A stretch of 32,369 nt of DNA. It comes from Sideroxydans sp. GTDB taxonomy: Bacteria > Pseudomonadota > Gammaproteobacteria > Burkholderiales > Gallionellaceae. Positions within the stretch are counted from its first letter, which is position 1. Every line of letters begins with the position of its first letter. The DNA is taken from contig JABFSI010000099.1 of assembly GCA_013140695.1 (NCBI GenBank), positions 1-32,369 on the forward strand, in the 5' to 3' direction. The notes under the pieces are model-generated. The model saw only the letters and a list, made by a program, of their open reading frames with translations. It did not search any database and was not told where the DNA came from. The position numbers and the translations under genes were made by a program. This document shows positions 5,713-30,893 of the stretch, one piece after another.

Positions 5713-8700
5713 TTAGTCGTCTTCATACTCACCCTCTTTACGCGCATGTCCGGGGAAGAATCGGCGCACCACCACGAAGAACACGGGGACGAGGAACACC
5801 GCCAGCACGGTGGCAGCCAACATGCCGCCCATCACACCGGTGCCGATGGCGTGGCGGCTTTGCGCACCTGCACCCGTAGAGAAAGCCAAGGGTGACACGC
5901 CCGCGATGAAGGCGATGGAGGTCATCAGGATAGGACGGAAACGTAGGCGACACGCTTCGACGGTGGCGGCGATGAGTTCCATGCCCTCGTCTTGCAACTT
6001 ACGCGCGAACTCGATGATCAGGATGGCGTTCTTCGCCGACAAGCCGATGATGGCGATGAGGCCGACCTTGAAGTAGATGTCGTTAGGCAGACCGCGTAGG
6101 TTCACCGCCAAGATCGCACCGAAGATGCCGAGCGGCACCACCAGCATCACCGCGAACGGGATAGACCAGCTCTCGTACAACGCTGCCAAACACAGGAACA
6201 CCACGAACAGCGAGATGGCGAACAGCAAGGGAGCTTGCGCGCCGGACATCAACTCTTCACGCGAAGTGGCCGACCATTCGTAGCCGAAACCGGGTGGTAG
6301 TTTCTGGGCGATGTCGGCCATCGCCGCCATCGCTTCGCCCGTGCTGCGACCCGGTGCCGCCGCGCCCGAGATCTTCATCGAAGGGATGCCGTTGTAACGG
6401 TCCAGCTTGGGCGAGCCGACAGTCCAACGTGCGGTCGCCAATTCCGAAAGCGGCACCATGCCTCCCTTGTTGTTGCGCACGGTGACCTTGAGGATGTCTT
6501 CCGGTGTACGGCGTGAATCGGCCTCGGCTTGCATCTGCACGCGCAAGATGCGCCCTTGGCGCACGAAGTCGTTGATGTAGGCCACGCCCAACAGCGATTG
6601 CAAGGTCTCGTTCAGGTCGGCAGAGGAGACGCCCAAAGCTTCCGCTTTGAGGCGGTCGACATCGAGCAACAGTTGCGGGCCCGCTTCTTGTCCTTCGGGG
6701 CGCACACCTGCCAAGGCGGGATTCTGCGCTGCCATACCTAGCATCATGTTGCGCGCTTCTAGCAATTTCTCGCGCCCTTGTCCGCTACGGTCTTGCAAGC
6801 GGAAATCGAAACCGCCCGTGGCGGAAAGTTCGGGGATGGAAGGCGGGTTGATGGCGAAGATCATCGCTTGTTTGATGCGCGACAATTCCTTGTTCGCTTT
6901 GCGCACCAAGGAAGGCGCGCTGCTTTCAGGGGCGAGGCGTTCTTCCCATCCTTTCAGGCGCACGAAAGCGATACCCGCATTCTGTCCGCGACCGAAGAAG
7001 GAGAATCCAGCGACGGCAACGACGTGCTCCACCTCGGGCATCTTGAGGTAATGCTGCTCGACTTGCTCCAATACTTCCATGGTGCGTTCCTGCGTCGCAC
7101 CCGCAGGCAGTTGGATGACGTTGATGAAATAACCTTGGTCTTCTTCCGGCAGGAAACTGCCCGGCAACTTGGTGAACAGCCAGCCCATCGCAACCACGAT
7201 GACCGCGTAGATCACCAGATAACGCGCGGTCTTGCGCACCATCGCGCCGACCCCTTTGGCGTAGCGCTGGGTCACGCGTTCAAAGAACAAGCCGAAGGGG
7301 CCGTGCGGTTTCGCGTCGTCCTTCTTTAAGATGGAGGCGCACAGTGCGGGGGTGAGCGTCACCGCCATCAAAGCGGAGAAGCCCATGGTCAACAGCAAGG
7401 TCACGGCGAACTGACGATAGATCGCACCCGTAGAGCCGCCGAACAGCGACATCGGGATGAACACCGCCGACAACACTAGTGTGATAGCGATGATGGCACC
7501 GATGATCTGATCCATCGCCTTGCGTGTGGCATCGCGCGGCGAGAGGCCTTCCGTCGCCATGATGCGTTCCACGTTCTCCACCACCACGATGGCATCGTCC
7601 ACCACGATACCGATGGCGAGCACCATCGCGAACAGCGTCAGCACGTTGATGGAATAACCCAATACGTACAACCCGACCAATGCGCCGACCAGTGCAACGG
7701 GAATGACGATGGTTGGAATGATGGTGGCGCGGATGTTGCCGAGGAACACATACATCACCAGCACGACCAGCAGCAACGCTTCAGCCAAACTCTTCAACAC
7801 TTCCTTGATGGAGATGTCGATGAATTGTGAGGTGTCATACGGCACTAGCCACTGCACACCCTTGGGCAGCGTCTTCTCCAATTCGCCCATGCGCGCCTTC
7901 ACGGCGGCGACGGTCTCAAGCGCGTTCGCGCCGGGCGCTAAACGGATGGCGATATTGGCCGAAGGCTGTCCATCAAGGCGCGATTGGCGACCGTAATCTT
8001 GCGCACCCAGTTCGACCCGGGCGACATCTTTCACGCGCAAGTTAGAGCCATCTGGGTTGGTGCGGATGATGACATTGCCGAACTCTTCGGTCGTCGCCAA
8101 GCGGCTGCGGGTGACGATCACCGCGTTCATTTCTTGTCCGGGTGCGGCGGGCAATTGTCCCAACTCACCCATCGCTAATTGCGTGTTTTGACCACGCACT
8201 GCTTTCGATACATCGGCGGGAGATAAACCATACGCTTGCAAGCGATCTGGCTTTAACCACAGGCGCATCGAATATTCGGTGCCGAACAACAAAGCCTCGC
8301 CCACACCTGGCACGCGCTTGATGTTGTCCAGCACGCCGGAGCTGACGATGCTGCCCAGCCCCACGCTGTCGTAAGTCTTGTCGGGTGAGATGAGCACCAC
8401 GAACATGACGTAGTTGCGCGCCGATTTATTGGTATTGATGCCGAGGCGGCGTACCTCTTCCGGCAAACGCGCTTCGACCCGTTTCACGCGGTTTTGCGCT
8501 TCCACCGCGGCAAGGTCGAGGTTGGTGCCTGTTTCGTAGGTCAGCGTGATGCTGCCGCTACCCAGCTCGGAGGCCGACTCCATATAGAGCAGGTTCTCCA
8601 CACCATTCAATTCTTGTTCGATGAGCGCGATGGCGGTCTCTTCGATGACCTGTGCCGAAGCACCCGGATAGGTGATGGAGACGGACAGTGCAGGCGGCGC

Positions 8701-8817
8701 GACAGGCGGGTATTGCGTCACAGGCAAGCCGCGCAAAGCGAGTACACCCGCCATCAAGATGATGATGGCAATGACCCACGCGAAGATGGGGCGATCAATG
8801 AAGAATTTAGCGAACAT
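5713..8817 (-). CDS. acrB: RND multidrug efflux transporter, HAE1 family inner-membrane permease
   Basis: At 1034 residues this has the normal length of AcrB/MexB-type pumps. It is a proton-driven trimer in the inner membrane that exports hydrophobic drugs through an outer-membrane duct. The proton relay is intact: D407 and D408 in IVVDDAIVVVENVER, and the TM10 lysine in GLSAKNAILIIEFARK. The signature N-terminus (FAKFFIDRPIFAWVIAIII) and the twofold repeat of porter and membrane domains are present. It is downstream of the periplasmic adaptor gene, separated by a palindromic repeat. No outer-membrane TolC-type gene is in the window. The symbol is used in the family sense; the substrate range is unknown. 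Confidence 0.96.
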   Translation of the reverse strand: MFAKFFIDRPIFAWVIAIIILMAGVLALRGLPVTQYPPVAPPALSVSITYPGASAQVIEETAIALIEQELNGVENLLYMESASELGSGSITLTYETGTNLDLAAVEAQNRVKRVEARLPEEVRRLGINTNKSARNYVMFVVLISPDKTYDSVGLGSIVSSGVLDNIKRVPGVGEALLFGTEYSMRLWLKPDRLQAYGLSPADVSKAVRGQNTQLAMGELGQLPAAPGQEMNAVIVTRSRLATTEEFGNVIIRTNPDGSNLRVKDVARVELGAQDYGRQSRLDGQPSANIAIRLAPGANALETVAAVKARMGELEKTLPKGVQWLVPYDTSQFIDISIKEVLKSLAEALLLVVLVMYVFLGNIRATIIPTIVIPVALVGALVGLYVLGYSINVLTLFAMVLAIGIVVDDAIVVVENVERIMATEGLSPRDATRKAMDQIIGAIIAITLVLSAVFIPMSLFGGSTGAIYRQFAVTLLLTMGFSALMAVTLTPALCASILKKDDAKPHGPFGLFFERVTQRYAKGVGAMVRKTARYLVIYAVIVVAMGWLFTKLPGSFLPEEDQGYFINVIQLPAGATQERTMEVLEQVEQHYLKMPEVEHVVAVAGFSFFGRGQNAGIAFVRLKGWEERLAPESSAPSLVRKANKELSRIKQAMIFAINPPSIPELSATGGFDFRLQDRSGQGREKLLEARNMMLGMAAQNPALAGVRPEGQEAGPQLLLDVDRLKAEALGVSSADLNETLQSLLGVAYINDFVRQGRILRVQMQAEADSRRTPEDILKVTVRNNKGGMVPLSELATARWTVGSPKLDRYNGIPSMKISGAAAPGRSTGEAMAAMADIAQKLPPGFGYEWSATSREELMSGAQAPLLFAISLFVVFLCLAALYESWSIPFAVMLVVPLGIFGAILAVNLRGLPNDIYFKVGLIAIIGLSAKNAILIIEFARKLQDEGMELIAATVEACRLRFRPILMTSIAFIAGVSPLAFSTGAGAQSRHAIGTGVMGGMLAATVLAVFLVPVFFVVVRRFFPGHARKEGEYEDD

Positions 8818-8867
8818 GTTTTACCTTTGAAAAACCATCATCCGCAAATCATGCAGATTGAAACATC

Positions 8868-8974
8868 TCGTTCCTTCCCCCATGCAGGGGGAAGGCTAGG
8901 ATGGGGGTAGAGTCGTGGAGCTTGAACGTTTCTACCCCCTCCCTAACCCTCCCCCTGCATGGGGGAGGGAATGA
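8868..8974. repeat. Palindromic dispersed repeat, type B, between acrA and acrB
   Basis: Two 44-base arms (8868-8911 and 8931-8974) match in inverted orientation at 38 of 44 positions, counted by eye. Each arm contains the palindrome CCCCCATGCAGGGGG and ends in GGGGGTAGA. It fills most of the 165 bp between the acrA stop and the acrB start. Transcribed, it would fold into a long GC-rich hairpin inside the operon mRNA. Its sequence differs from the other repeat types here. Confidence 0.88.
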
Positions 8975-8982
8975 TCCGAGAA

Positions 8983-10113
8983 TTACTTAACGTTAGATAG
9001 TTGCTTGTCCAGCTTCATCGTCTCGACCAGTGGCACTGCTTTCACCACTGTGCCGGGTCGTGCCTTCTGCAAACCATTCACGATGACCTGTTCTCCACCT
9101 TTGAGTCCGTTGAGGATGACGAAATCGGTCGAGGCCATGCCACCCGTTTTGATCGGTTGCGGATTGGCTTTGCCGTCCGCACCTACCACCATCACGAACT
9201 GACCGGAGGTGTTGGATTGCACCGCGCGTTGTGGCACGCGGATGACGTTCTCAGCGATGGCCTGAGGGAAGCGGATGCGCACGAACATGCCGGGCAACAG
9301 GTCGCGTTTCGCATTGGGGAACTCGGCGCGGAGCGACACCGACCCCGTGGAAGGATCGACGGCCAGATCGCTGAAAGAGAGTTTTCCGGGCTTTGAATAG
9401 AGGCTGCCGTCTTCCAACAGCAATTCCACTTTGGCGGTGTCCACACGCTTCAATAGTCCTGTGGCTACAGCACGACGCAAGCGTGATAATTCATCACTGG
9501 ATTGTGTGAAATTCACATAGACAGAATCGAGTTGCTCGATGGTGGCGAGCAGTGTCGCGCTACTCTTACTGACCAATGCGCCCTCAGTGACTTGTGCGCG
9601 ACCGATGTACCCAGAAAGGGGGGCGGGCACATTGGCGTGAGCTAAGTCCTCTTCCGCTTTGACGAGCGTAGCCGCCGCCTGCTTAGACTTGTTCTGCGCG
9701 ATGTCGAGGTCTTGCTGGCTGACGCCATTGATTTCGCGCAGTTGTTTCAGGCGTTCAACCGTCTCTTTGGCCAGCGCGGCATCCGCTCTAGCGGCGTCGG
9801 CGGTGGCTTGGTAACTGCGTGAGTCGATGCGGAACAGTCTTGAGTTGGCTTTCACCTGGCTGCCTTCTTTGAACAAGCGTGCTTCCACGACGCCATCCAC
9901 GCGGGCGCGTACCTGTGCGGTGCGGAAAGCCTGTACTCGCCCTGGTAGGTCTTGCGTGAACGTAGCATCGCCCGCAGCCACGGTGATGACTTCGACTTCG
10001 GGTGGCGGGGGTGCAGAAGCAGCCGGTGCGGCGGCTGTCGCGGCAGGCTTGTCGCCCGCACCGCATGCGCTCAACAGCGCCAGCAAAGAAAGTGTGATGA
10101 ATCTATTCAGCAT
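8983..10113 (-). CDS. acrA: RND efflux periplasmic adaptor lipoprotein
   Basis: A 376-residue membrane fusion protein of the AcrA/MexA type. The N-terminus is a lipoprotein signal (MLNRFITLSLLALLSAC, with Cys17 as lipid site), followed by an Ala/Pro-rich linker. Next come the lipoyl half-motif region (VRARVDGVVEARLFKEGSQVK), a coiled-coil hairpin around residues 100-160, the second lipoyl half (PAPLSGYIGRAQVTEGALV) and the beta-barrel and membrane-proximal domains (FPNAKRDLLPGMFVRIRFP). It joins the permease encoded downstream to an outer-membrane channel. No TetR-type repressor gene is adjacent, unlike many acrAB loci. Confidence 0.95.
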   Translation of the reverse strand: MLNRFITLSLLALLSACGAGDKPAATAAAPAASAPPPPEVEVITVAAGDATFTQDLPGRVQAFRTAQVRARVDGVVEARLFKEGSQVKANSRLFRIDSRSYQATADAARADAALAKETVERLKQLREINGVSQQDLDIAQNKSKQAAATLVKAEEDLAHANVPAPLSGYIGRAQVTEGALVSKSSATLLATIEQLDSVYVNFTQSSDELSRLRRAVATGLLKRVDTAKVELLLEDGSLYSKPGKLSFSDLAVDPSTGSVSLRAEFPNAKRDLLPGMFVRIRFPQAIAENVIRVPQRAVQSNTSGQFVMVVGADGKANPQPIKTGGMASTDFVILNGLKGGEQVIVNGLQKARPGTVVKAVPLVETMKLDKQLSNVK

Positions 10114-17389: not shown

Positions 17390-17584
17390 ATGAGCGGTTG
17401 GGGTTGTCCGCATGAGGTGGATGAGAAGTGCCAGAAGGTACTGAACAAGCCATGCGACATCGGCATGAAGGGGTGCGTTCTTGCAGGACGTTTTAACTTC
17501 GCCGACCCGAGCAAGAATCGCCCGAAGAAGAAACCGCTCGATGAAAGCTCTACACCCGTTCAGACTTCTGAAAAAGATGAATGA
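17390..17584 (+). CDS. Small conserved cysteine-containing protein of unknown function
   Basis: A 64-residue protein. The first 37 residues have four regularly placed cysteines (GWGCPHEVDEKCQKVLNKPCDIGMKGCVLAGRF), suggestive of a small metal site, and the rest is a charged, probably disordered tail. I recall similar short proteins in betaproteobacteria but no named function. AAGGA sits six bases before the ATG. It begins 9 bp after the PhnA-like gene and overlaps the next gene by 8 bp, so the three may share a transcript. Confidence 0.75.
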   Translation: MSGWGCPHEVDEKCQKVLNKPCDIGMKGCVLAGRFNFADPSKNRPKKKPLDESSTPVQTSEKDE

Positions 17585-18494
17585 GTTCGTGAATTGTCTC
17601 TGTTGTCATTCCCGCGAAAGCGGGAATCTAGTTAATGAAAAGCGCTGGATTCCCGCTTTCGCGGGAATGACGGTAGTTTTTGCATTGTTGTGGGTATCTC
17701 AATCGGCCATCGCCGCAGAAATCGCTTTACCGCGCCCCGATCACATCGTCATCGTAGTGGAAGAGAATCGGGGCTATTCCAAGATCATCGGGAATGCTGA
17801 TGCGCCCTACATCAACGCGCTCGCGCAACGCGGTGTGTTGTTCACTAATTCGTATGGCGTTACCCATCCCAGTCAGCCCAACTATCTAGCCTTGTTCTCC
17901 GGCACGACGCGTGGCATCAGCAGCAATGCGTGCCCGTTGGAATTGAAGGGTGAGAATCTGGGCGGGGCGCTCATCGAGAAGGGTTTGAGCTTCGTCAGCT
18001 ATTCAGAGTCTTTGCCCGAGGCGGGCTACGAAGGGTGTCGCTACGGTGCGTACATGCGCAAACACAATCCAGCGGCGAATTGGAAAGAGCTGGCCGCGTT
18101 CAATCAACCGTTCACCGCGTTCCCGCAGGATTTCTCGCAACTCCCAACGGTATCTCTGGTCGTGCCCGATCAGCGTAACGATATGCACGACGGCAGCATT
18201 GAAGAAGGAGATGCATGGCTGAAACAAAACATCGAGGCTTATTCGCAGTGGGCGATGACCCATAACAGTCTGCTCATCGTGACGTTCGACGAAGATGATG
18301 GCCGCGAAGGGAATCGTATCGCGACGATGTTCGTGGGTGAGATGGTAAAACCCGGAAAATCAGCACAGCGCATCAACCACTACACGCTTCTGCGCACGCT
18401 TTCTGAGATGTATGGTCTGCCCGTCTTGGGTGAGAGCAAGGATCAGCAGCCCATCATGGGGGTGTGGAAGAGGGCGGGTAAGAAGCGTAACTAG
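17577..18494 (+). CDS. Secreted phosphoesterase (PF04185-like, acid phosphatase type) with a repeat in its signal region
   Basis: The mature part resembles the alkaline-phosphatase-fold phosphoesterases of the SapM/phospholipase C group: HIVIVVEENRGYSKIIGN at the start, THPSQPNYLALFSGT (predicted nucleophile region), PDQRNDMHDG and TFDEDDGREGN (metal ligands), and a C-terminal HYTLLRTLSEMYGLP. The hydrophobic stretch TVVFALLWVSQSAIAA with cleavage after AIAA looks like the end of a signal peptide. The start is uncertain: ATG at 17577, overlapping the previous gene, reads through a palindromic repeat (17605-17671), while ATG at 17667 lies at the end of the repeat. The frame stays open through the repeat and gives an unusual N-region, CHSRESGNL..IPAFAG. 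Confidence 0.82.
   Translation: MNEFVNCLCCHSRESGNLVNEKRWIPAFAGMTVVFALLWVSQSAIAAEIALPRPDHIVIVVEENRGYSKIIGNADAPYINALAQRGVLFTNSYGVTHPSQPNYLALFSGTTRGISSNACPLELKGENLGGALIEKGLSFVSYSESLPEAGYEGCRYGAYMRKHNPAANWKELAAFNQPFTAFPQDFSQLPTVSLVVPDQRNDMHDGSIEEGDAWLKQNIEAYSQWAMTHNSLLIVTFDEDDGREGNRIATMFVGEMVKPGKSAQRINHYTLLRTLSEMYGLPVLGESKDQQPIMGVWKRAGKKRN
17605..17671. repeat. Palindromic dispersed repeat, type A, inside the phosphoesterase reading frame
   Basis: Arms 17605-17631 and 17645-17671 match in inverted orientation at 26 of 27 positions, around the core TTCCCGCGAAAGCGGGAA, with a 13-base loop. It is the same family as 5641-5711. It lies within the 5' part of the phosphoesterase gene and contributes about 22 residues to the longest frame. 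Confidence 0.93.
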
Positions 18495-19185: not shown

Positions 19186-20601
19186 TTACAAGCTGTAGTA
19201 CATCTCAAACTCAACGGGGTGAGTTGTCATGCGAATGCGATTCACTTCTTCCATCTTCAGATCGATGTAAGCATCCAAGAAGTCGTTAGAGAACACACCG
19301 CCGCGTGTCAAGAACTCACGGTCTTTGTCCAATGCAGCCAGTGCTTCGTCCAAAGATGCGCAGACGGTTGGAATCTTCGCATCTTCTTCGGGTGGCAAGT
19401 CGTACAGGTTCTTGTCTGCTGGATCGCCAGGGTGAATCTTGTTCTGGATACCATCCAAGCCCGCCATCATCAGTGCGGAGAAGCACAAGTATGGGTTAGC
19501 AGAAGGATCGGGGAAGCGTGTTTCGATACGGCGCGCTTTGTCGCTTGCAACGTGAGGAATACGAATCGAAGCAGAACGGTTCTTTGCAGAGTAAGCCAAT
19601 TTCACAGGCGCTTCGTAGTGAGGCACGAGGCGTTTGTAAGAGTTGGTGCCTGGGTTGGTAATCGCGTTCAAAGCCTTGGCGTGCTTGATAATACCGCCGA
19701 TGTAGAACAACGCCATTTCAGACAGACCTGCGTAGCCATTGCCTGCGAACAGATTCTTGCCGTCTTTCCAGATGGATTGGTGAACGTGCATGCCAGAACC
19801 GTTGTCGCCAACGATTGGCTTAGGCATGAAGGTCGCTGTCTTGCCATATTGGTGAGCGACGTTTTGGATCACGTACTTCATGGTTTGAGTCCAGTCAGCA
19901 CGTTTTACCAGTGTGCTGAACTTCGTTCCCAATTCGCATTGACCTGCTGTCGCCACTTCGTGGTGATGCACTTCAACAGGAATGCCGATCTCTTCCAACA
20001 GCAAACACATTTGCGCGCGCATGTCGTTCAAGCTATCGACTGGAGGCACAGGGAAGTAACCCCCCTTTACCATTGGACGGTGGCCGGTGTTACCGCCATC
20101 GTATTTTTCGCCAGTAGACCAAGCAGCTTCTTCCGAATTGATTTTTACAGAGCAACCTGACATGTCAATCTTCCACTCAACGGAGTCGAAGATGAAAAAT
20201 TCTGGCTCTGGGCCGAAGAATGCCGTGTCACCCACACCAGAGGACTTCAGATAAGCCTCGGCACGTTTAGCGATAGAGCGTGGATCACGGTCATAACCCT
20301 TGCCATCGGTTGGCTCGATAACGTCGCAAGACATCACCAGTGTTGGCTCGTCAAAGAAAGGGTCAACATAAGCAGAATCAGGATCCGGCATCAACAACAT
20401 GTCGGAGGCTTGAATGCCTTTCCAACCTGCGATGGAGGAACCGTCGAAGGCGTGGCCTTCTTCGAATTTGTCTGCATCAACGTGGGAGACAGGCACGCCA
20501 ACGTGCTGTTCTTTACCGCGTGTATCCGTGAAGCGCAGATCAACAAATTTAATACCTTGTTCTTTAATTAGCTTCAGAACGTCAGCTGCTGTTTTGGCCA
20601 T
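19186..20601 (-). CDS. glnA: Type I glutamine synthetase
   Basis: A 471-residue class I-beta glutamine synthetase, which condenses glutamate and ammonia with ATP. Seen are [21 protein letters not shown], the ATP/metal signature [36 protein letters not shown] and NRSASIRIP. The adenylylation tyrosine is Tyr400 in NLYDLPPEE, so control by GlnE is expected. The start at 20601 ([12 protein letters not shown]) has GGGAG upstream; the longer open frame up to 20775 lies in the promoter and is not coding. A sigma-54 promoter and NtrC-like sites lie upstream. No ntrBC genes follow within the window; a terminator closes the unit. Confidence 0.98.
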
Positions 20602-20786: not shown

Positions 20787-20816
20787 CGCACTAGTTTGGT
20801 GCAGATAGTTGGTGCA
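20787..20816 (-). promoter_or_regulatory. NtrC-like binding sites upstream of glnA
   Basis: At 20787-20803 the minus strand reads TGCACCAAACTAGTGCG, matching the NtrC dyad TGCACCA-N3-TGGTGCA at 12 of its 14 arm positions. A second, weaker dyad at 20800-20816 reads TGCACCAACTATCTGCA, with a perfect left half. They lie about 130 and 143 bases upstream of the predicted sigma-54 start, the usual enhancer distance. The first overlaps the stop codon of the CDF transporter gene. Confidence 0.7.
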
Positions 20817-21972
20817 GCGAGATGCTCCGGAAATAGGGGTCGTCGACCACAATAGCGGTACATTTCTGCGCCAGCCCAACAAACGTGGCGTTGTCTAGCA
20901 AGAGCAATTCTGCATCGACCTTGCCATTCAGATAATGCAGCACGATCCGTGTGGACGGGGGCAGTGGGTGTCCCAAGCGCTCATTCAAATGCGCTAACAG
21001 CAAATGGCGTTGCGGCAGATGGGCATTGGGTCTCGCGTGCGCATCATCCTCGGGGTCGATATGCACCATTACATCCATTACATGATGCGCCTTCAATACC
21101 GCGCCGCGCGCCGCTTCGGCAATGTAGTGGCCTTCCGAAACGCTTATCTTGGGGTCAACCATGATGTGTGCGTCGACCAGCGCGTTATCGGCCATTTTGC
21201 GTGTACGCAAATCGTGCAGGCCAATCACGCCGGGCACGGCTTTTAAGGTGTTGCGAATCGCCCGCACCTCTTCTTCATCCAGTCCTGTGTCGACTAATTC
21301 CATCAATGCTTCACGCGCAAACTGGATGCCCATGTAAGCAATCATCACGCCCACTACAGCGGCGGCGACAAGGTCAAGAAAGGTGTAACCCAACAAATTG
21401 CCGATGATGCCGACGACGACAACCAAGGAAGAAGCCGCATCCGAACGAGCATGCCACGCATTGGCAATCAACATTTGCGAGCGCACACGTTGCGCGATGG
21501 CCAGCATGTAACGGAACATGCCTTCCTTCGCGGCGAGGGCGAACAACGCCACCCATAAAGTGAAGGGATGCACGGCTTGCACTTGTTCGGGATGTTGCAA
21601 GCGCATGCCTGCCGCGATGAGTAAGCCCACGCCGAGCGCAGCTAAACTTGCGCCGAGGATGAGCGAAGCAGCGGTCTCGATACGTGCGTGACCGTAAGGA
21701 TGGTTCGCATCTGCGTGTTTGTTGCCGTGGCGATTGGCAAATAGCACCAACACATCAGACAGCAAGTCGGCAAGCGAATGCAGGCCGTCGGCCATCAAGG
21801 ATTGTGATTTACCGAAGAATCCCGCCAGCACTTGCACGATGGTCAAAATCAGGTTGATGAAAATGCTGACCCAAGTGCTTTTGCGTGCGGCAGCAAAACG
21901 CGCGGGATGGGTGGGTTCAAACGCGGCAGACTTGCCGTGTGAATGATTGTGTGAGTGGGCGTGATTAGTCAT
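20791..21972 (-). CDS. Cation diffusion facilitator (CDF) family metal transporter
   Basis: A 393-residue CDF transporter, expected to export divalent metal (Zn, Fe, Mn or Co) by proton exchange. It has a His-rich N-terminus (HAHSHNHSHG), six membrane segments, the TM2 site HSLAD in MADGLHSLADLLSDV and the TM5 site HARSD in NAWHARSDAASS. The cytoplasmic C-terminal domain includes VPGVIGLHDLRTRKMADNALVDAHIMVD and extends about 80 residues past the usual CDF end. The Zn-site pattern H-D/H-D favours zinc but does not exclude others. It is the fourth gene of the operon, 10 bp after the diguanylate cyclase. Confidence 0.93.
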   Translation of the reverse strand: MTNHAHSHNHSHGKSAAFEPTHPARFAAARKSTWVSIFINLILTIVQVLAGFFGKSQSLMADGLHSLADLLSDVLVLFANRHGNKHADANHPYGHARIETAASLILGASLAALGVGLLIAAGMRLQHPEQVQAVHPFTLWVALFALAAKEGMFRYMLAIAQRVRSQMLIANAWHARSDAASSLVVVVGIIGNLLGYTFLDLVAAAVVGVMIAYMGIQFAREALMELVDTGLDEEEVRAIRNTLKAVPGVIGLHDLRTRKMADNALVDAHIMVDPKISVSEGHYIAEAARGAVLKAHHVMDVMVHIDPEDDAHARPNAHLPQRHLLLAHLNERLGHPLPPSTRIVLHYLNGKVDAELLLLDNATFVGLAQKCTAIVVDDPYFRSISLHQLSAPN

Positions 21973-21982
21973 GGCGTCGTCA

Positions 21983-23206
21983 TTAAAGTTGGAACAGCTG
22001 TACGTTATTACGCCCCGCGCCTTTTGCGGCATACATGGCGATATCGGCATTTTTACTTAAGGTTTCGGCATCTTCGCCGTGTTGAGGATAGAGCGCAACA
22101 CCGATACTAGAACCGATGTTTAAGGTGTGCGTGCCGATACTAAAAGGTTGCGCCAACGCATGCAAAATTTTGTGAGCAATATCGCTGGCTTCTTGTACGT
22201 TATGCAGGGAATGCAGAATAACGACGAACTCATCGCCGCCCACGCGCGCCACGGTATCCGATTTGCGCATCGCGCCTAGCAAACGTTCAGCAACAGCCTT
22301 AAGCAAAGCATCGCCCACATCGTGACCTAAAGTGTCGTTTACGGGTTTGAATTTATCTAAGTCGAGGTAAATCAGCGCGCACTGCTGATGACTGCGCTTT
22401 GCTTGTAACAACATTTGTGTCAGTCGGTCATTCAATAAGGCGCGATTAGGCAAGCCAGTGAGGGTGTCGTGATGCGCCATATTTTCATACAGCACTTTGA
22501 GCATTTCAATTTCATTCCTTTGCGCGCGTTCATAGACCAGCACAGATTCAATTTCAGTAAGTAAGGCATTGCTGATATGAGTGAGCCGCACAATCTCTTT
22601 TGTACCATAGGCAGTGGGTGGCGCAAGACGTGCCGCACTGCCAGGTTGCGTGTCTTCCAGTTGTTGCGTGAGTGTTTCGATAGGGCGCACGACGAAGCGC
22701 GATACGGCGAGCCAAATTACAAAGTTAGGCAGTAAGAGCAGGATGACGAGCGTGAGCGCGAGTTGCGCTGATTCACGATAGGAGCGTGCCTTCACTACCG
22801 AAATATCAATGCGCGTTTCTAAATGTCCGATGACCTCTTCTCCATCAAATGGAGAATACAAAGTGTGAATCACGGATTCAGGGCAATTCGAAGTGTCTGC
22901 GTATTTGGTAGTGTTGGCATGTAATTTGTCATCGTTGTAAAGCATTGCGCCGCATACCGCTTCATCCAGCATTAACCCTTGAATGACATCGTTGGCAACT
23001 TCATTATTGCCAGTGAATACCGCAATGGCTGCCGAGTATTCCACCGCCTGCATCATGCGATTGATTTGCGCCGTGTTTTCTTTAACGTTGTTATGGTACG
23101 CAACAAAAAAAATGAGCAGCAAGGCGACACCGCCGATGACGATGGAACTTCCCGTGACTATCCAAAACAGGCGAGACTGAAGCGAGGGGTGATGATTGAA
23201 GTTCAT
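21983..23206 (-). CDS. Membrane-bound diguanylate cyclase with periplasmic sensor, HAMP-like and GGDEF domains
   Basis: A 407-residue protein with membrane segments at about 12-36 and 147-170 enclosing a periplasmic domain of about 110 residues (CHASE8-like in length and position, with Cys85 and Cys108). A HAMP-like stretch (RFVVRPIETLTQQLED), a short coiled coil and a C-terminal GGDEF domain follow. The active-site GGDEF is intact at 323-327 and the inhibitory I-site RKSD lies five residues before it, so c-di-GMP synthesis with product feedback is expected. No EAL domain follows. Its ATG overlaps the stop of the PstS-like gene (ATGA), pointing to the periplasmic protein as a likely partner. 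Confidence 0.93.
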   Translation of the reverse strand: MNFNHHPSLQSRLFWIVTGSSIVIGGVALLLIFFVAYHNNVKENTAQINRMMQAVEYSAAIAVFTGNNEVANDVIQGLMLDEAVCGAMLYNDDKLHANTTKYADTSNCPESVIHTLYSPFDGEEVIGHLETRIDISVVKARSYRESAQLALTLVILLLLPNFVIWLAVSRFVVRPIETLTQQLEDTQPGSAARLAPPTAYGTKEIVRLTHISNALLTEIESVLVYERAQRNEIEMLKVLYENMAHHDTLTGLPNRALLNDRLTQMLLQAKRSHQQCALIYLDLDKFKPVNDTLGHDVGDALLKAVAERLLGAMRKSDTVARVGGDEFVVILHSLHNVQEASDIAHKILHALAQPFSIGTHTLNIGSSIGVALYPQHGEDAETLSKNADIAMYAAKGAGRNNVQLFQL

Positions 23207-23619
23207 TCGAGATTTAAGACGACCTCAACATCGTCGTTGATATTTGCTGCATCCACAAATCCTAAGGTATCCGCGTTGCGTTTTATGCTTTGTAGTACGG
23301 CCGCTTGATCCACTAAACGATGGGGTGCATTGGCTTGCCCTGAAAATGAAAGTCGCGCCCAGTAAGCATTAATTTGGGCAAGGCTTTTGCCCGTGAGCGC
23401 CCAGTAAAAACGTTCGCGTAGTTTTGGGTCGCCTTGATAATCCAGCACCAATAAATCAGGATGCTTACGCAATTCGGTGCCACGTCCCATATAAATATCG
23501 GCCACTTGTTTGCGCGTGAGCGAGTCGATAGCGTTGTCTTTATGTACCACCACAGCAATGCTGGCCGCATAAGCGGGGGGCAGAGATAATATGAGCAACA
23601 AATAGAGTGCGATGCGCAT
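23203..23619 (-). CDS. Small PstS-like periplasmic substrate-binding protein
   Basis: A 138-residue exported protein with a signal peptide (RIALYLLLILSLPPAYA, cut before ASIA). The body looks like one lobe of a phosphate-binding-protein fold: VVVHKDNAIDSLTRKQVADIYMGRG, then RERFYWALTGKSLAQINAYWARLSFSG and VLQSIKRNADTLGFVDAANI. Proteins of this short type are usually annotated as phosphate ABC transporter substrate-binding proteins but lack transporter partners and tend to sit beside signalling genes. No permease or ATPase gene is present. The ATG at 23619 lies 2 bp after the barrel gene stop, and its end overlaps the diguanylate cyclase start. Confidence 0.85.
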   Translation of the reverse strand: MRIALYLLLILSLPPAYAASIAVVVHKDNAIDSLTRKQVADIYMGRGTELRKHPDLLVLDYQGDPKLRERFYWALTGKSLAQINAYWARLSFSGQANAPHRLVDQAAVLQSIKRNADTLGFVDAANINDDVEVVLNLE

Positions 23620-23621
23620 AC

Positions 23622-24815
23622 TTAAAACACTCTGTCGTAGGCGAGAGAAAGTAAGGACACATCGCCAAATTTGGGTTGCCAATGGATGCCGCCTAAATCG
23701 TGCTGTGAATCAAACTGTGCTTTAAGGTCGCTGTTGGCGGTTAAGAAGCGACGCACCGTCAGCGCGCGATTGAGGTGATGCTCTTGACCTTGTGGATCGC
23801 CGCCTGCTGCTGTATTGGCTTTGCCAATGTATTCGGAAATTCCCACGCTGAATTCCCAGTCATCCATGCGATGAGTGATGCCGATGCGGTCGGCGAAGTC
23901 GTTAAAAGTTGCCCCAGGACGGTCGATGTAGAGCAATTCGCCGAGCAGTACCCAGCTTTCAAAATCGAAATTTAAGGCGCTGGTGTAAATCCGCTGTTGG
24001 GTGATTTGCCCTAATAAAAATGGGTCAGTGGCGGCTTGTAAAGTTTGTGTGAGGGGATTGATGACGCCATTGCGCGCCACGCGTGAAGTGTCGGACTGAA
24101 TGTAAGCCATGCGCGCTTCAAACCAACTTTGGTGCAAGGTTATGTTGCCACCTACAAGGTGATTCCACTGCACATTGGTTTTGGAAACCTCACCGTTGTA
24201 AATCGCCCAATAGCCGCTGTTCGTGACGTGTTCCTTGCCCGCCAGCAGATTCGTTACCACATCCCATTCACCCAATTGTGCAACATGTTGCACACTTATG
24301 CCGTTGTAATTCACCGCCTCCCAGCCGTACAGCTGTGGGGGCAGATGCGTCCAAGGCAATGCGAAACCCACGTCTTGCACATCCGAGTAATAAAACAAGG
24401 GGATGCGTTTGCGTCCCACATGCAAGGTGAGTGAATCGCTGACAGGATAAGAAGCGAACAATAGTTCTAACGTGGCATGTGGACTGTCTATGTCACGCAA
24501 AATAACTTGCGTGGTGATGGCGAAGCGCGAGTCAGTGTGGGTGATCGTGCCTTGCAAACCTAATTTGGTGCTGGGGGCAATTTGCACGTAGCCCGCGCCG
24601 CTGTGATACACATCTTCTTGTGCAAAATCAGGAACAAAGCACGGACATTGTTTGCCAGAAATGAAACCGGGCGTGCCGCTTACAATATGACCCGCCCCTA
24701 TTGTGGCGAAGCCCGAGCCCGTGAAGGCGAAGCCGTCCTGCGCAGATTCAGCTTGCACTACAAGCGGAGTGAGGCAAACCGCCAAGTACAAAGAAGAGCG
24801 TAAAAATTTGATCAC
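23622..24815 (-). CDS. Outer-membrane porin-like beta-barrel protein
   Basis: A 397-residue protein with a signal peptide (IKFLRSSLYLAVCLTPLVVQA, cut before ESAQ) and alternating-residue strands throughout, ending in an aromatic residue (SLLSLAYDRVF), the terminal Phe expected of a BAM substrate. The likely start is GTG at 24815, five bases after AGAGG; an in-frame upstream start at 24887 has no support. It has a Cys pair near the mature N-terminus (KQCPCF). I read it as a porin-like channel of unknown cargo. It is the first gene of the four-gene operon, facing away from the rhodanese gene. Confidence 0.8.
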   Translation of the reverse strand: MIKFLRSSLYLAVCLTPLVVQAESAQDGFAFTGSGFATIGAGHIVSGTPGFISGKQCPCFVPDFAQEDVYHSGAGYVQIAPSTKLGLQGTITHTDSRFAITTQVILRDIDSPHATLELLFASYPVSDSLTLHVGRKRIPLFYYSDVQDVGFALPWTHLPPQLYGWEAVNYNGISVQHVAQLGEWDVVTNLLAGKEHVTNSGYWAIYNGEVSKTNVQWNHLVGGNITLHQSWFEARMAYIQSDTSRVARNGVINPLTQTLQAATDPFLLGQITQQRIYTSALNFDFESWVLLGELLYIDRPGATFNDFADRIGITHRMDDWEFSVGISEYIGKANTAAGGDPQGQEHHLNRALTVRRFLTANSDLKAQFDSQHDLGGIHWQPKFGDVSLLSLAYDRVF

Positions 24816-24918: not shown

Positions 24919-24970
24919 ATGTTGGGATACCATCCAATTCTCAAATGACCAATATGACAGCGAGAAAATC

Positions 24971-25423
24971 ATGGGCAAAATCACCGAAATAATGAACAAA
25001 GCACAGCAGCGCGCCAAAGAATCCAACTTGCCTTACAAAGGAGCGCTGTTGCCCAGCGAAGCAAATAACCTGCTGCAATTAGCCCCAGGCGCCAAGGTGG
25101 TCGACGTGCGCACGCGTGCAGAAATTGATTGGGTGGGGCGTGTGCCTAGCGCAGTTGAAATTGAATGGATGACTTACCCAGGCATGAAGGCTAATCCCAA
25201 CTTCATGGTTTCATTGGAGCAGCAAGTGGATAAAGAAGCGCTGGTGATGTTTTTGTGCCGCAGCGGGCAGCGCTCACATGCCGCCGCTCTTGCTGCCACA
25301 CAAGCCGGCTACCTTGATTGCTACAACATCCTTGAAGGTTTTGAGGGCGACAAAAACAGTGCTAATCAGCGCAATGTGAGCAATGGTTGGCGCAAAGCAG
25401 GGCTGCCGTGGCAGCAAAGTTAA
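24971..25423 (+). CDS. Rhodanese-like domain protein
   Basis: A 150-residue cytoplasmic protein with one rhodanese domain. KVVDVRTRAEIDWVGRVPSAVEIEW is followed by the active-site loop CRSGQRSHAAA, with the catalytic Cys, and by YLDCYNILEGFEGDKN. The GDKN and NGWRKAGLPWQQ ending are typical of the single-domain rhodaneses of betaproteobacteria. The predicted activity is transfer of a sulfane sulfur; the physiological acceptor is unknown. It stands alone between a divergent operon and a terminator shared with uppP. Confidence 0.93.
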   Translation: MGKITEIMNKAQQRAKESNLPYKGALLPSEANNLLQLAPGAKVVDVRTRAEIDWVGRVPSAVEIEWMTYPGMKANPNFMVSLEQQVDKEALVMFLCRSGQRSHAAALAATQAGYLDCYNILEGFEGDKNSANQRNVSNGWRKAGLPWQQS

Positions 25424-26526: not shown

Positions 26527-26787
26527 TTATACAGACGGCCGCGTGGCAAGCTCCAAGCTTGATAACCACTGCATTGCCTGTTCACGTGATTCGCCGCACA
26601 TCTCGGCTGAAGGCCGCAGACCGCCACAGAAGGCGGGGCGCTCGGGTTTGCCGAATACCTTGCAGCGCAGTTCATCATCAAGCTGTACACACGGCACTCC
26701 GGCAGGTTTGCCCAGCGGCATGCCGGGCAGGGGAGAAGTGATGGAAGGTGCGATGCAACATGCACCACACCCGCTACGACAGTTCAA
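26527..26787 (-). CDS. YkgJ family cysteine-cluster protein
   Basis: An 86-residue protein with the YkgJ pattern: [20 protein letters not shown], then [17 protein letters not shown] and [15 protein letters not shown]. The conserved cysteines probably hold a zinc or iron-sulfur centre; the role is unknown. The family start corresponds to TTG at 26787, which overlaps the stop of the large restriction-modification gene as TTGA. No ATG is available, and translation probably depends on coupling. Confidence 0.9.
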
Positions 26788-29700
26788 ACTTGCACCACCG
26801 TGGTGAAATCACCTGCTGCCACAGCGTTCATGTAGGCGAGGATTAAGTCTTTGGTGAGATAGCGATCGTGCGCCTTGATGTCCTGCTCGCGCACGATGGG
26901 GAAGGTGTCGAGGATGTAGGCCGCATCGTCGCGGTTGATGCCGTAGAGGTTGAAGAACAACGCATCCAGCCGCGCGAGGCGATGGCGGCGGTCTTCTTCG
27001 TTCCACTTGAACGGTGCGCCGTCGTAGCCCAAGTCGCGAGCGAAAGGCGCGAGGTCGTGCGCGGTATAGGAGAGACGTAGCACTTCGTTACGCACGAAGT
27101 CGGCGATTTTGGTTTTGCCCAGGGTTTGTTCGAATTGTTCGGGGCGGATTGCCGGCATTTGTTCAAGAATAAACCAACTTAAATTTTGTCCCTGTACCTT
27201 CTGGCGCAGCAAATAATCGAATACGAAAGAGCAGAGATTTGCCAACAACAATGGGACTGACATTGCGCTATCGCTATTTTCTTGTGGCACGAGCATAGAC
27301 ATGCTGTGCCCAACACCAACCTTTGGCAATATTGCAGCAATCATTGTTCGAACATTGGTGGGTGAGGAAACTGACTTAAACGATATGCCCCATTGGCCTG
27401 ACCAAGTTTTATTAACTTCGGTGGTCTCAGTCCAGTACTGCGGAGATGGATAAAAATTCGCATCTTCATGTTGTGCCACAGTGTTGCTTTCTTGCTGTGC
27501 GGGGCGATGTAGATTGTCGGCGTTGATCACCACGCTGGCGGCGCGATGATCGTACATCTGCACCATCTTACCTTCATACAGAGGCACTGCTTTCGTTTCA
27601 CCCTTCTTCCATTGGTTCATACCGACCGGATACCAGCCTTCTTTTTCCAGTTCGTCGCGCCGTTTGAATAGGGCGGAATCGTTGGTCATATGGAACATGG
27701 TGCAATAGCGCACTGGCCAAACTTTTTGCATCTGCGTTCGTGCTGAGCTTTTCGAAGCACGCCCTTCGACATGCTCAGGGCGAACGGTATGCAAAACCAG
27801 CACAGGCTGTCTGCGGTAAATCGCGGTAGTGATGTCGGCGTCACGTTTTGTTCTGAAGATTGGAGCCGAGCCAGTGTTGGGATTCACGGCAGAAAAATCC
27901 TGTGCGGTGAGCGTGAGGATATGTTCCGGATCGGCTGTCTCTTCCAGCGTGTGTAGATAAAAGGCGCAGCGTGCTGCCTCTACCGTACGTTCTGCGCCGC
28001 CGAACATTAGTGCACTGAATTTGAAGCGGCTGTCCACATCGGGAAACAAGCCTTTTCGGTTTTCAAAATCGTAAAGCGCGGCAAGCCGTCCCGTAGTGGA
28101 AATGCTGCGGAAAAATTCCGCCGCGCCTTTGTCTGCCGCGATACCGGAAGGACACAGCAAGCCGACAGAGCCGCGCGGATGAATCAACGACTGCGCGCGT
28201 TCGACAAACAGCGAATACAGGTTAGTGTCGCCGCCGGACAGCAGCGGGTAGTCGCCGCATTCGCGTGCCACGCGGCTGCCCGCTTCGGCAGCAGCTTGTG
28301 CGGCAAGGTATTCCTGCCAAAGTAGGTCGTTGCTAGCTTCAAGCTGTGCGATGAGTTTTTTTCGGTCAGCAGCACGTGTCGCTTTGGCGATTTCCGGTTT
28401 GCGCTCCGCAAACCATTCGACTTGTTGCAATTTCATTACGTCCCACGGCGGGTTGCCAATGATGGCATCAAAGCCACCTTGTCCGTTTTGCCAGACAGTG
28501 GGAAAGGCTAATTCCCAATGCAGGAAATGTTCCTGTGTTGCGCGACGCAGTGCGTCTTGTACCGTGGCGTGGGTTTGCCGCTCGTTTTCGGTGGGCAGTT
28601 TGCCTTTGCGCTCGGCAAAAAACTTCACCGATTCCAGCAGGGTGTCGCCGTATTCGTTAGCCAGCAAATCTGCCCATGTGCGGTCATATTCTTTTTTGCG
28701 ATCCTTGCCCGCCCAAAGCCGGGCTTGTAGGAAATCCAGCGTGCGCCACAGTGGGCGCAAGCCGTCAGTTGCAGTATCCATCATGGCCTTGGAATGATGC
28801 GCCTCGGCAATGTCGATGTCGGTGAGATTGCCGATAGCAAGCATCAGGTCGCGTGCGGATTGTAAGCGCTGTAAATCATCCTGATAGATCAAGCTGCCCT
28901 GCTGATTAAGTACTTCCCTGACTTGGCTGACCTTGCCGCCAAACAGCGAATCGCCGCAATGCAGGTGATGGTCGAGGAAGGAAAGTGGTGCGCCGACGGT
29001 GAAGGTGTGCAACCACAATGCAACTTTGGCGAGTTCCACCGCCATCAGGTTTTTGTCCACGCCATGCACCACGCGCTTGAGGATCATGCGGCGCACGACG
29101 TGGCGATCATCCAGTTGTGCTTCGGTTACCGACCAGCGGTTTTTATGTGCAGCGGTAAGGATGCGGTTGCGTATGTCGGCAATGCGCGCAACGAGGGGTG
29201 AGCCCCATGGGTTGCTGGCGTCCTTCGCCCATGCTTGGGCGGCAACTTCAAGCTCTGCCTCGGCAATGGTTTCGAGTATTTCGTCGGCGAGGTAGTCCAC
29301 TAAGGATACAAGGAAGTGGCCGCTACCCATCGCCGGGTCGCAAACCTTGAGGTCGAGGATGGTGGATGCCGGGTCAAGGCTGTCGAGCAGTTTCCAATCA
29401 TCCGGCTTGAGTTCGTGCTTGCGTTGCCAAAGCTCAATCTGGTTGTGGAACGCGGCCTTGCGTTCGGCGATCAAGGGGCCAACCGTTTCACGGATGATGA
29501 GTTTTACCAGCCCGTCGTGGGTGTAATAACTGCCGCTGGTCTTGCGCGCAAAGCTGGCAGGACGAGCAACGATTTTGTTGTCCTCAACAGTCAGGCTGTA
29601 TTCGAGCAGGCGTTCGTAGATACCGCCCAAGTGTTGCACGGAAAGGTCACGGTAGTTAATCCATGCTCTGAGAATATCGGGGCGACGTGCGAGGTCGTCG

Positions 29701-30893
29701 AACAAGGGAGCAAAACGTGCGTCCGGCACACGCGAACGCGTAAGCAACGGTGCGCGGCTCTCTTCGAATAAACCTCCGTTGTAGGCGGGCATGCCAATAG
29801 AAGCGTCACCCTTGGCGATGATTTGGAACAGGTCATTAAGATGCTGCCAGTAGCGCGTGGCAGTGTCGCTCAATGTGTCATTCGCATCGCGGCGCTTGGC
29901 GATGTCCTCACGTATTTTGCGCAAGGCATAATCGTCATAGCGCTCATCGCGTACCGGTAGCAAGTTACGATCTTCGGCATACAAGATGAATAGCAGACGG
30001 TAAAGCAGGATCAGTGTGGCTTCGCGCAGTTCTGCGAGATAAGCGGGAGAATCCAGTTTTGCATCCGGGTCCCCAGCCGCCAGTGCGTCGGCCAGTTGTG
30101 GAAAGATGGTGGTGAATACACGCCCCCCCAAATCTTGCGAGACTTTTTCTTCGTACAGCCTAGCTTCGTTGAAGGCGTATTCGTGAAAGCTGCGATTTTC
30201 TTTGTCCCATGTTTGGCGCAAAAAAGCACCACGGTGAAATAGGCAAAAAAATAATTTGATACCGTGACGCGCTTCCACGCTGAACAGGTTTTGTGCAATA
30301 CCGGGAACGCCCAGCAAAGCAGCTAAATCAAGTTCAAAGAATTCTTCGGAACGGGAGCGCGCACCTTGCCAGTAAAGTCGCCAGACCGCGCCGTTGGTGA
30401 GAATGCCCCAGCGCACAGCGCGCTCTGAGGCGACCTCGACGCTTGAGAGGTAGCGCAGTATCTGGTTAGAGGGTGTGCCAGGATCAAGGCGGCTGGTGGC
30501 ATCACCACGATCCAGCGGGCGCATCCATTTCTTGGCCTCGATGATGGCGATGCCGTGACGGTAACGCAGGTCTTCGCGTTTTTCCGCACGCGCGGCTTGC
30601 TTCGCCGATTCATCTGGAAACAGTAAGAAATCGGGCACGTCGTCACGACGTTTGCTGGAGGCATTGTTTTGTCTCAAGGACAAGTCGCGCCAACCCAGCA
30701 AACTGAGTACTTTTTCAATGACTTCGCTTTCGGTGTCGGCTTCGCCCAGCTTGCTGTCTGCAGCGAGGGGCGCATAGATATTTTTCAGGTCGGCGATAAA
30801 AGTGTCGAGTGATGCTTCGGGTAGCGCTTCCCAAACAGGAGTCGTCTTGATGCCATCAAGTAAAAAGTCTTGCGAAAAAAGTTTGCCGTCCAT
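26784..30893 (-). CDS. Single-chain restriction-modification protein (Eco57I-like, type IIG) with N-terminal nuclease and N6-adenine methylase domains
   Basis: A 1369-residue protein. Residues 80-125 carry a PD-(D/E)XK-like site (PDFLLF at 87-92, IIEAKKW with E119 and K121). A helical linker leads to the methylase: [12 protein letters not shown] (motif X-like, about 455), DPAMGSGHF (motif I, 519-527) and NPPWD (motif IV, 814-818), the gamma-type N6-adenine arrangement with a large insert. The C-terminal 500 residues should hold target recognition. There is no helicase domain, which argues against type ISP, and no BREX or DISARM partner genes are nearby. A 50-bp palindromic repeat lies in frame at about residues 1037-1052. 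It starts 14 bp after the toxin gene and overlaps ykgJ. Confidence 0.88.
27736..27785. repeat. Palindromic dispersed repeat, type E, inside the restriction-modification gene
   Basis: Two abutting 25-base arms (27736-27760 and 27761-27785) form an imperfect inverted repeat with ends GTTCG and CGAAC and the internal string CTGAGC(T/A)T(T/G)TCGAAG. From memory this CCTTCGACA-GCTCAGG type repeat is widespread in proteobacteria and usually intergenic. Here it is translated as [17 protein letters not shown] without breaking the frame. Confidence 0.88.

Follow-up and report, generated by a model that had tools for sequence, protein, structure and literature searches.

A porin-like barrel, an isolated PstS-type lobe and a diguanylate cyclase in Sideroxydans: a candidate YfiBNR-like c-di-GMP switch with two parts replaced

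Four closely spaced genes on the minus strand of a Sideroxydans sp. contig (GenBank assembly GCA_013140695.1, contig JABFSI010000099.1, positions 1 to 32,369; this whole stretch of 32,369 nucleotides is called the window) raise the question of what a small PstS-like secreted protein does between an outer-membrane barrel and a diguanylate cyclase, and whether the metal exporter that closes the run takes part in it. The genes stand in the order barrel, small gene, cyclase and CDF cation exporter, with gaps of 2 bp, -4 bp (an overlap) and 10 bp. The original prediction, made from the sequence alone, described them as one four-gene unit in which a solute would enter by the barrel, be captured by the small protein, control the synthesis of cyclic di-GMP (c-di-GMP) and be matched by metal export. 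Its gene positions and gaps were confirmed from the coordinates of the open reading frames (ORFs). The close spacing is as proposed, but the conserved unit consists of barrel, small gene and cyclase (the cassette), without the CDF gene. On balance we favour the reading that these three proteins form a trans-envelope c-di-GMP switch similar to YfiBNR in which two parts have been replaced.

The small gene (23203..23619, minus strand) encodes a secreted protein of 138 residues for which, as for the window barrel, no Pfam match was obtained at E<=1. Its AlphaFold2 (AF2) model, based on 59 aligned sequences, reached a pLDDT of 92.6 and a pTM of 0.83, and the top Foldseek matches of this model were PstS structures. 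Alignment with VIA-align revealed that the model fits the second lobe alone (residues 107-235 of 4gd5, Z 13.5, root-mean-square deviation 2.3 over 107 residues), with a Z of 8.8 against residues 77-209 of Escherichia coli PstS (1pbp). The profile of the small-protein family retrieved PstS from the PDB at 6e-13, and the window protein itself gave a partial NCBIfam match to the PstS model TIGR02136 (4.5e-5, far below the cut-off). The Pfam domain PBP_like_2 was recognized in 24/59 homologues and not in the window copy; two other proteins encoded by the window genome lie above the PBP_like_2 cut-off. In this genome (2.5 Mb, 145 contigs) the small gene is single-copy, and the nearest one in a named record belongs to a Sideroxydans metagenome-assembled genome (78% identity). 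With 138 residues only, lobe 1 is absent, and the two lobes and hinge that define PstS were not found. Fold and profile place the protein on lobe 2, in agreement with the PstS likeness first proposed, and the predicted structure is that of an isolated second lobe of a PstS-type phosphate-binding protein.

The phosphate ligands of lobe 2 in E. coli PstS, which we take to be R135, S139, G140 and T141, correspond in the window protein to Y61, P65, K66 and L67 (columns from the PDB profile alignment). In the family, the arginine is retained in 5/151 sequences, the serine in 97/130 and the threonine in 8/150, and the glycine is outside the six commonest letters of its column; the serine, usual in the family, is absent from the window copy. 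The signature of the family is made of W87 (148/150), F92 (146/150), G94 (150/150) and P99 (146/150), which are candidates for an interaction face. One lobe being absent, ordinary flytrap closure on phosphate is impossible within one chain. With most lobe-2 ligands replaced in addition, phosphate is disfavoured as a ligand bound in the manner of PstS, and the predicted capture of a ligand by the small protein becomes doubtful in its flytrap form. The lack of a transporter partner was rightly anticipated: pstCAB genes are not among the window neighbours of the small gene. Two irregular copies were seen elsewhere. At L043 (4992-5415), ahead of a GGDEF-EAL protein, two overlapping frames of 88 and 104 residues take the place of an intact small gene, possibly through a frameshift or as a pseudogene, and genome G317 has an extra partial copy. 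No fusion of small protein and sensor is labelled in the gene runs listed, where long ORFs with the small domain (e.g. L039, L040, L048, L064) were taken as upstream frame extensions and not inspected singly.

The cyclase gene (21983..23206, minus strand) overlaps the small gene by 4 bp and encodes 407 residues with the architecture transmembrane helix, CHASE8-like PAS domain, transmembrane helix, linker and GGDEF domain (Pfam PF00990, 5.3e-52). The GGDEF (residues 323-327) and RxxD (314-317) motifs are intact, which gives the protein a complete diguanylate cyclase signature, and the best NCBIfam match over its whole length is DgcN/YfiN (207.9 bits versus a cut-off of 325). The periplasmic sensor domain (residues 32-153, 22748..23113, minus strand) was modelled by AF2 with a pLDDT of 93.8 as two helices, four strands and a closing helix, a single-Cache/PAS-like fold whose nearest structures by VIA are the LapD orthologue CdgS9 (4u64, Z 11.6), WalK (10.1), DcuS (9.2) and CitA (8.4). 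The Pfam CHASE8 model (PF17152) matched 10/59 sensor homologues at E<=1, at best 0.022, and not the window copy. By profile-profile comparison the sensor family matched CHASE8 at 96.8% (E 2.2e-10, 117 columns), the CHASE8 profile consisting of 29 CHASE8 domains of the phylum and E. coli DgcN; among the 30 loci, the partial match L374 was excluded, and the L372 row starts with masked letters. Four controls gave at most 0.3%: sensor versus small-protein family, CHASE8 versus small-protein family, sensor versus barrel family, and sensor versus reversed CHASE8. Set against E. coli DgcN alone, the sensor family reached 1.2%, too weak a match, and the 30-member profile was used in its place; a query for YfiN homologues with the periplasmic part of DgcN, which found matches in only 2/274 genomes, was not used. 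Judged from these profiles, the periplasmic domain is a diverged relative of CHASE8. In YfiN, the stretch AAVVF on the PAS domain is the proposed docking place of YfiR, according to the available part of PMC3375315. The window cyclase carries AIAVF (residues 60-64, 23015..23029, minus strand), a hydrophobic stretch with a terminal aromatic that aligns at about the same helix end and, by analogy, may be the place where the adaptor docks.

The first gene of the cassette (23622..24815, minus strand) was identified as an ORF with a GTG start and encodes the porin-like outer-membrane barrel of 397 residues, a length that recurs in L067, L068 and L069. Among 32 aligned barrel homologues, Pfam recognized Porin_4 in 8 (best 9e-10), OMP_b-brl in 3 and five families with one member each; the OmpA family was not among these matches, and the profile search for PDB relatives of the barrel found none.

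The conservation of the arrangement was followed in three sets of genomes. The relatives set comprised 149 genomes related to the window genome, 48 of them with a match. The species-wide set came from a scan by sequence pattern in which each of 84,980 species was represented by a single genome; the motifs were those of CHASE8-type copies, and the best 80 of 187 relatives were kept. The phylum set was drawn from an even sample of 398 genomes, in which 100 regions were taken by score among the matches listed, excluding genomes already in the other sets; six regions (L244, L253, L270, L296, L299, L328) gave no countable small gene under the ORF selection used and three gave two, making 97 small genes. 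These sets overlap, L096 being the same contig as L067 and other species-wide loci repeating genomes of the relatives set; because L039 and L092 overlap, the relatives set includes two G144 small genes a second time, and close relatives were kept in the counts. Genes were regarded as linked within three genes of a same-strand run, with gene runs and ORF starts from a simple in-house method. A signalling domain was GGDEF, EAL, HATPase, MCP (methyl-accepting chemotaxis protein) or REC, the last standing alone in L038, L093 and L164, none of which is in the phylum set.

A barrel gene was found near the small gene in 56/68 cases in the relatives set, 78/80 in the species-wide set and 93/97 in the phylum set, and a signalling domain in 50/68, 69/80 and 68/97, respectively. 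The overlapping classes among the 97 phylum-set runs were GGDEF (37), EAL (25), MCP (17), HATPase (16) and REC (16), and GGDEF or MCP was present in 53/97. For comparison, seven genomes were counted, with 13 to 64 GGDEF and 6 to 38 MCP domains each; if genes are spaced one per kilobase, the chance of meeting a GGDEF gene among six neighbours picked at random is, by our own arithmetic, below one in ten. The linkage of barrel, small gene and signalling gene is far above chance, and the conservation of a small gene-cyclase linkage in other genomes, proposed as a check of the original prediction, was indeed observed. Where a signalling gene directly follows the small gene, the gap is 10 bp or less in 17/23 (phylum), 23/31 (relatives) and 60/62 (species-wide) cases, counts in which overlaps are exaggerated by taking the first possible codon as ORF start. 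Strong matches to the small gene number at least 122 in at least 64 of the 398 phylum genomes; the 113/398 genomes with any match are an overestimate, the weak matches including likely full-length PstS, whose frames have about 280 residues. A FastTree tree was built for the small proteins, and 169 of its rows could be labelled by output class; at least 21 class changes were required, compared with a mean of 79.8 (minimum 73) in 50 shuffles, the alignment being short and the 21 changes possibly inflated by error. This tree indicates that partner classes are inherited yet swapped over time.

Several loci show other partners of the small gene. In L055-L060, L062 and L063, from one genus of the window's family, a histidine kinase, a GGDEF response regulator and a gene of about 362 residues (split in L062) accompany the barrel and the small gene as a two-component version. 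In the same-genus relatives L079, L080, L083 and L088, the gene after barrel and small gene encodes a hybrid histidine kinase (about 910 residues, some 150 of them in the periplasmic span), whose domains in L079 are HisKA-HATPase-REC-REC-Hpt. In PLSDB the product name of the small protein is 'phosphate ABC transporter substrate-binding protein', and it adjoins a 'porin' in one record and an EAL protein in another. The Alteromonas macleodii plasmid pKD01 (L336) carries, next to a type IV CRISPR (csf) cluster, a small gene followed by a gene of barrel size and unknown product, and none of the genes annotated nearby is a signalling gene.

These counts bear on a first alternative, that the small protein is an aid to solute uptake which binds, as half-site or dimer, a solute entering by the barrel, the cyclase reading out this uptake or being merely co-expressed. 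Such a role would suit a fold that descends from PstS and the constancy of the barrel-small gene pair, the highest in the phylum set; it would also account for the plasmid copy L336 and for the 29/97 runs of the phylum set without a signalling domain, although in 16 of these one lies within three genes if either strand is allowed. The missing lobe and the replacement of most lobe-2 phosphate ligands speak against it, as does the signalling gene that adjoins most small-gene copies, and we judge an uptake role unlikely.

The sensors encoded beside the small gene were then compared. In the phylum set, the CHASE8-like domain was recognized in 10/14 GGDEF partners, 8/12 kinases, 0/18 MCPs and 0/21 GGDEF-EAL proteins, and in the relatives set in 6/7 GGDEF partners, 6/12 GGDEF-EAL proteins, 1/16 kinases and 0/8 MCPs. 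The species-wide values (GGDEF 58/60, GGDEF-EAL 6/6, kinase 4/4) hold partly by construction, as the sensor model A4 was mostly built from those loci; the phylum set is largely independent of A4. Periplasmic spans in the phylum set were 150-170 residues in the MCPs and 250-279 in 16/21 GGDEF-EAL proteins, and 3/3 tested long-span GGDEF-EAL proteins gave a dCache_3 match. Either the small protein serves several sensor types, or the barrel is its primary partner.

The strongest argument came from the distribution of YfiR, the periplasmic adaptor of YfiN. Among the matches to Pfam CHASE8, YfiR was encoded within 3 kb in 65/73 and the small gene within 5 kb in 0/73; conversely, 65/78 YfiR matches had CHASE8 within 3 kb, and 0/122 small genes lay within 5 kb of CHASE8 or YfiR. 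In these counts the small genes came from 398 genomes and the CHASE8 and YfiR matches from 249, so that nearness is testable for part of the 122. Small and YfiR genes occur together, though apart from each other, in 11 genomes, which account for 20 of the 122. A YfiR profile matched no ORF in 246 small-gene loci and matched 59/60 CHASE8/YfiR loci, half of which had been retrieved by YfiR itself; the small-protein profile matched 0/60 of the latter and the sensor model A4 2/60. DUF4154 (PF13689, the YfiR family) is absent from the window genome at E<=0.01. Homology of the small protein to YfiR was tried and rejected, with 0.7% against E. coli YfiR alone and 0.3% against a 30-row YfiR profile, from which L397 was omitted among 30 YfiR loci. 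Such separate pairing is the strongest evidence that the small protein takes the place of YfiR. The argument gains weight from PMC4655355, where YfiR itself is reported to resemble a single lobe of an ABC-type binding protein.

A second alternative makes the small protein a periplasmic plug or chaperone of the barrel, in a kind of quality control in which the linked sensors report the state of the barrel or of the envelope. The barrel is the most constant partner, and the linked sensors come in at least three sizes of periplasmic part, as might be expected if they report barrel state in general. A chaperone role is not known for a PstS lobe, which counts against such a function; contact with the sensor is favoured by sensor genes that closely abut the small gene where they follow it directly, and by the occurrence of small genes and YfiR at different loci. 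Quality control of the barrel seems to us quite improbable.

In the YfiBNR-like switch that we favour, we infer the contacts of the adaptor with sensor and barrel, the sign of the control, the signal and the role of the barrel as follows. The small protein would sit in the position of YfiR, bind the CHASE8-like PAS domain and set the activity of the cyclase, and the porin-like barrel would sit in that of YfiB, admitting a small solute or holding the adaptor. A signal from the barrel, either a passing solute or a barrel state that recruits the adaptor, would change the occupancy of the adaptor at the cyclase, and the second transmembrane helix and the linker would relay this change to the GGDEF domain. 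The adaptor is assumed, by analogy with YfiR, to be a brake on the cyclase.

Several observations weigh against this switch. The small protein and YfiR show no sequence relation (0.3%, as above). The pairing of YfiR and CHASE8 is incomplete, YfiR being absent at 8/73 CHASE8 matches and CHASE8 within 3 kb at 13/78 YfiR matches, and the value of 0/73 is partly definitional, as the sensors beside small genes score below the Pfam CHASE8 model. The same barrel-small pair stands beside MCPs, GGDEF-EAL proteins and most relatives-set kinases without a CHASE8-like domain, and the 29 phylum-set runs devoid of a signalling domain may point to another primary role of the pair. Finally, the aromatic of the putative docking stretch AIAVF is one residue out of register with that of YfiN.

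The fourth gene, for the CDF exporter (393 residues; 20791..21972, minus strand), was assigned by synteny to the core neighbours of the site and outside the cassette. Its product carries Cation_efflux (3e-44) and ZT_dimer domains in Pfam and scores above the cut-off of TIGR01297 in NCBIfam. A CDF orthologue (1e-60 or better) is present in 32/34 same-genus genomes, own included, and 10 same-genus relatives have any small-gene homologue among the matches listed. The cassette stands beside CDF in 2/30 same-genus CDF loci, those of the window and of the sister genome G010, and is absent from 28/30. In 27/28 cassette-free loci a rhodanese gene directly adjoins CDF (the exception, L200, has no rhodanese match within the flank), and in 28/28 glutamine synthetase lies on the far side. 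In the window these borders are the rhodanese-like gene (24971..25423, plus strand; Pfam Rhodanese 8.7e-10) and, beyond CDF on the other side, glnA (19186-20601, minus strand; Gln-synt_C 4.9e-141). Genome G011 has a cassette-free CDF site (L182) and the cassette elsewhere (L068).

Comparison with cassette-free relatives drew attention to GTATCCCAACA (24921..24931, minus strand), 5' of the barrel, which contains the nine-base core TATCCCAAC. This core directly precedes the CDF start codon in the 6 cassette-free relatives compared; in the window it lies about 105 bases upstream of the barrel start, where G010 has one mismatch and reads TATCCCATC. The placement, suggestive at most, is what an insertion of the cassette that separated the CDF gene from its leader would leave behind. 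On grounds of parsimony, these gene orders favour an ancestor shared by the window genome and G010 in which the three genes of the cassette were inserted between rhodanese and CDF. As the cassette inserted just upstream of CDF, the exporter gene is probably co-transcribed with it in the window. Among the 246 small-gene loci, CDF-like ORFs (E<=1e-5) were found only in the window, in G010 (counted twice) and in L093, and a close CDF orthologue beside the small gene only in the window and its sister. CDF is a bystander, a captured neighbour and not a part of the cassette; its membership in the system was rejected on same-genus synteny and the search of these loci. Since CDF loci are cassette-free at 28/30 and CDF occurs in 32/34 genomes, the 'matched metal export' of the original prediction is baseless, and the four-part model of solute entry, capture, c-di-GMP control and export, although co-transcription is likely where the CDF-cyclase gap is 10 bp (window) or 12 bp (G010) and L093 (940-5417) has a barrel-small pair followed on the same strand by a distant CDF-family gene (1.7e-15, about 3 kb 3' of the small gene) and a HisKA gene, is hardly credible with the exporter so regularly found without the cassette and, in G011, apart from it.

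The window neighbours of the small gene comprise barrel, cyclase, CDF, glutamine synthetase, rhodanese and BacA/UppP. A scan for promoters and terminators was uninformative (2 promoter-like sites versus 4.8 expected, 8 terminator-like versus 6.2 expected). Elsewhere in the window are an AcrB-family pump (5713-8817) with an HlyD-type adaptor (8983-10113), together at 5713-10113 on the minus strand, a phosphoesterase-family protein (17481-18494; PF04185, 4.8e-41), with no link shown to the cyclase gene, whose end lies about 3.5 kb away, and an Eco57I-type restriction-modification methylase of 1369 residues (26784-30893).

Beyond this locus, the chances seem to us about even that the barrel and the one-lobe PstS protein serve the Gram-negative envelope generally as a portable unit for signal input, with an adaptor of the YfiR type invented independently for a second time out of a single binding-protein lobe. 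Such a unit would be joined to at least three types of periplasmic sensor, namely a CHASE8-like PAS (about 115 residues), an MCP domain (about 150-170) and a dCache (about 250-270), and its outputs would be of four kinds, cyclase, GGDEF-EAL protein, hybrid kinase and chemoreceptor; databases name it a phosphate transporter component. This would offer a role for a large set of small proteins recorded under the transporter name, and would give a testable partner to many c-di-GMP enzymes, kinases and chemoreceptors of unknown input. It also suggests that sensors of the CHASE8 kind twice took up a one-lobe binding-protein adaptor from families without detectable sequence relation; if the adaptor was recruited twice, partner docking, rather than direct solute binding, may be the function of these sensors.

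The open-licence papers of PubMed Central, the scope of the search (subscription papers and preprints being outside it), yielded, among the papers listed, no description of a PstS-like one-lobe protein with barrel and cyclase. In the consulted part of a 2022 review (PMC8846402), SBP_bac_3 is the only member of the PBP clan studied in c-di-GMP networks, and a term search of this review of c-di-GMP sensing gave no mention of YfiR, PstS or porin in the text covered. The periplasmic structures of YfiR and YfiN are absent among the structure matches listed for the small-protein and sensor models, which is uninformative either way.

Compared with known systems, the small protein shares with PstS (PBP_like_2, TIGR02136) the fold and sequence of the second lobe, but differs by the absence of lobe 1 and by arginine, glycine and threonine ligands that are rarely kept. 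In the LuxP-LuxQ pair, a soluble protein of the PBP fold likewise informs a membrane sensor. LuxP is complete and two-lobed, whereas one lobe and an outer-membrane barrel are found here, and the LuxQ domain is a weak fold match to the sensor (3c30, Z 7.4). The closest relative in logic is YfiBNR (DgcN-YfiR-YfiB of E. coli and Pseudomonas), which likewise has one gene each for an outer-membrane component, a small soluble protein of the periplasm and a cyclase, its PAS domain being CHASE8 where that of the window cyclase is a relative of CHASE8. It differs in its adaptor, DUF4154 rather than a PstS second lobe; in its outer-membrane part, the Pal/OmpA-like peptidoglycan-binding lipoprotein YfiB rather than a porin-like barrel; and in its sensor, which here is diverged to the point that the window copy is missed by the Pfam CHASE8 model. 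Moreover, the PstS-lobe adaptor and YfiR were not found at one locus. The Yfi core is described in the available part of PMC3375315 as modular, with kinase, GGDEF-EAL and MCP outputs, so that on this account output domains vary in both families. The likeness to YfiBNR first proposed goes deeper than it was put, with a sensor related to CHASE8 and, going by PMC4655355 for YfiR, an adaptor that is a single binding-protein lobe in both systems.

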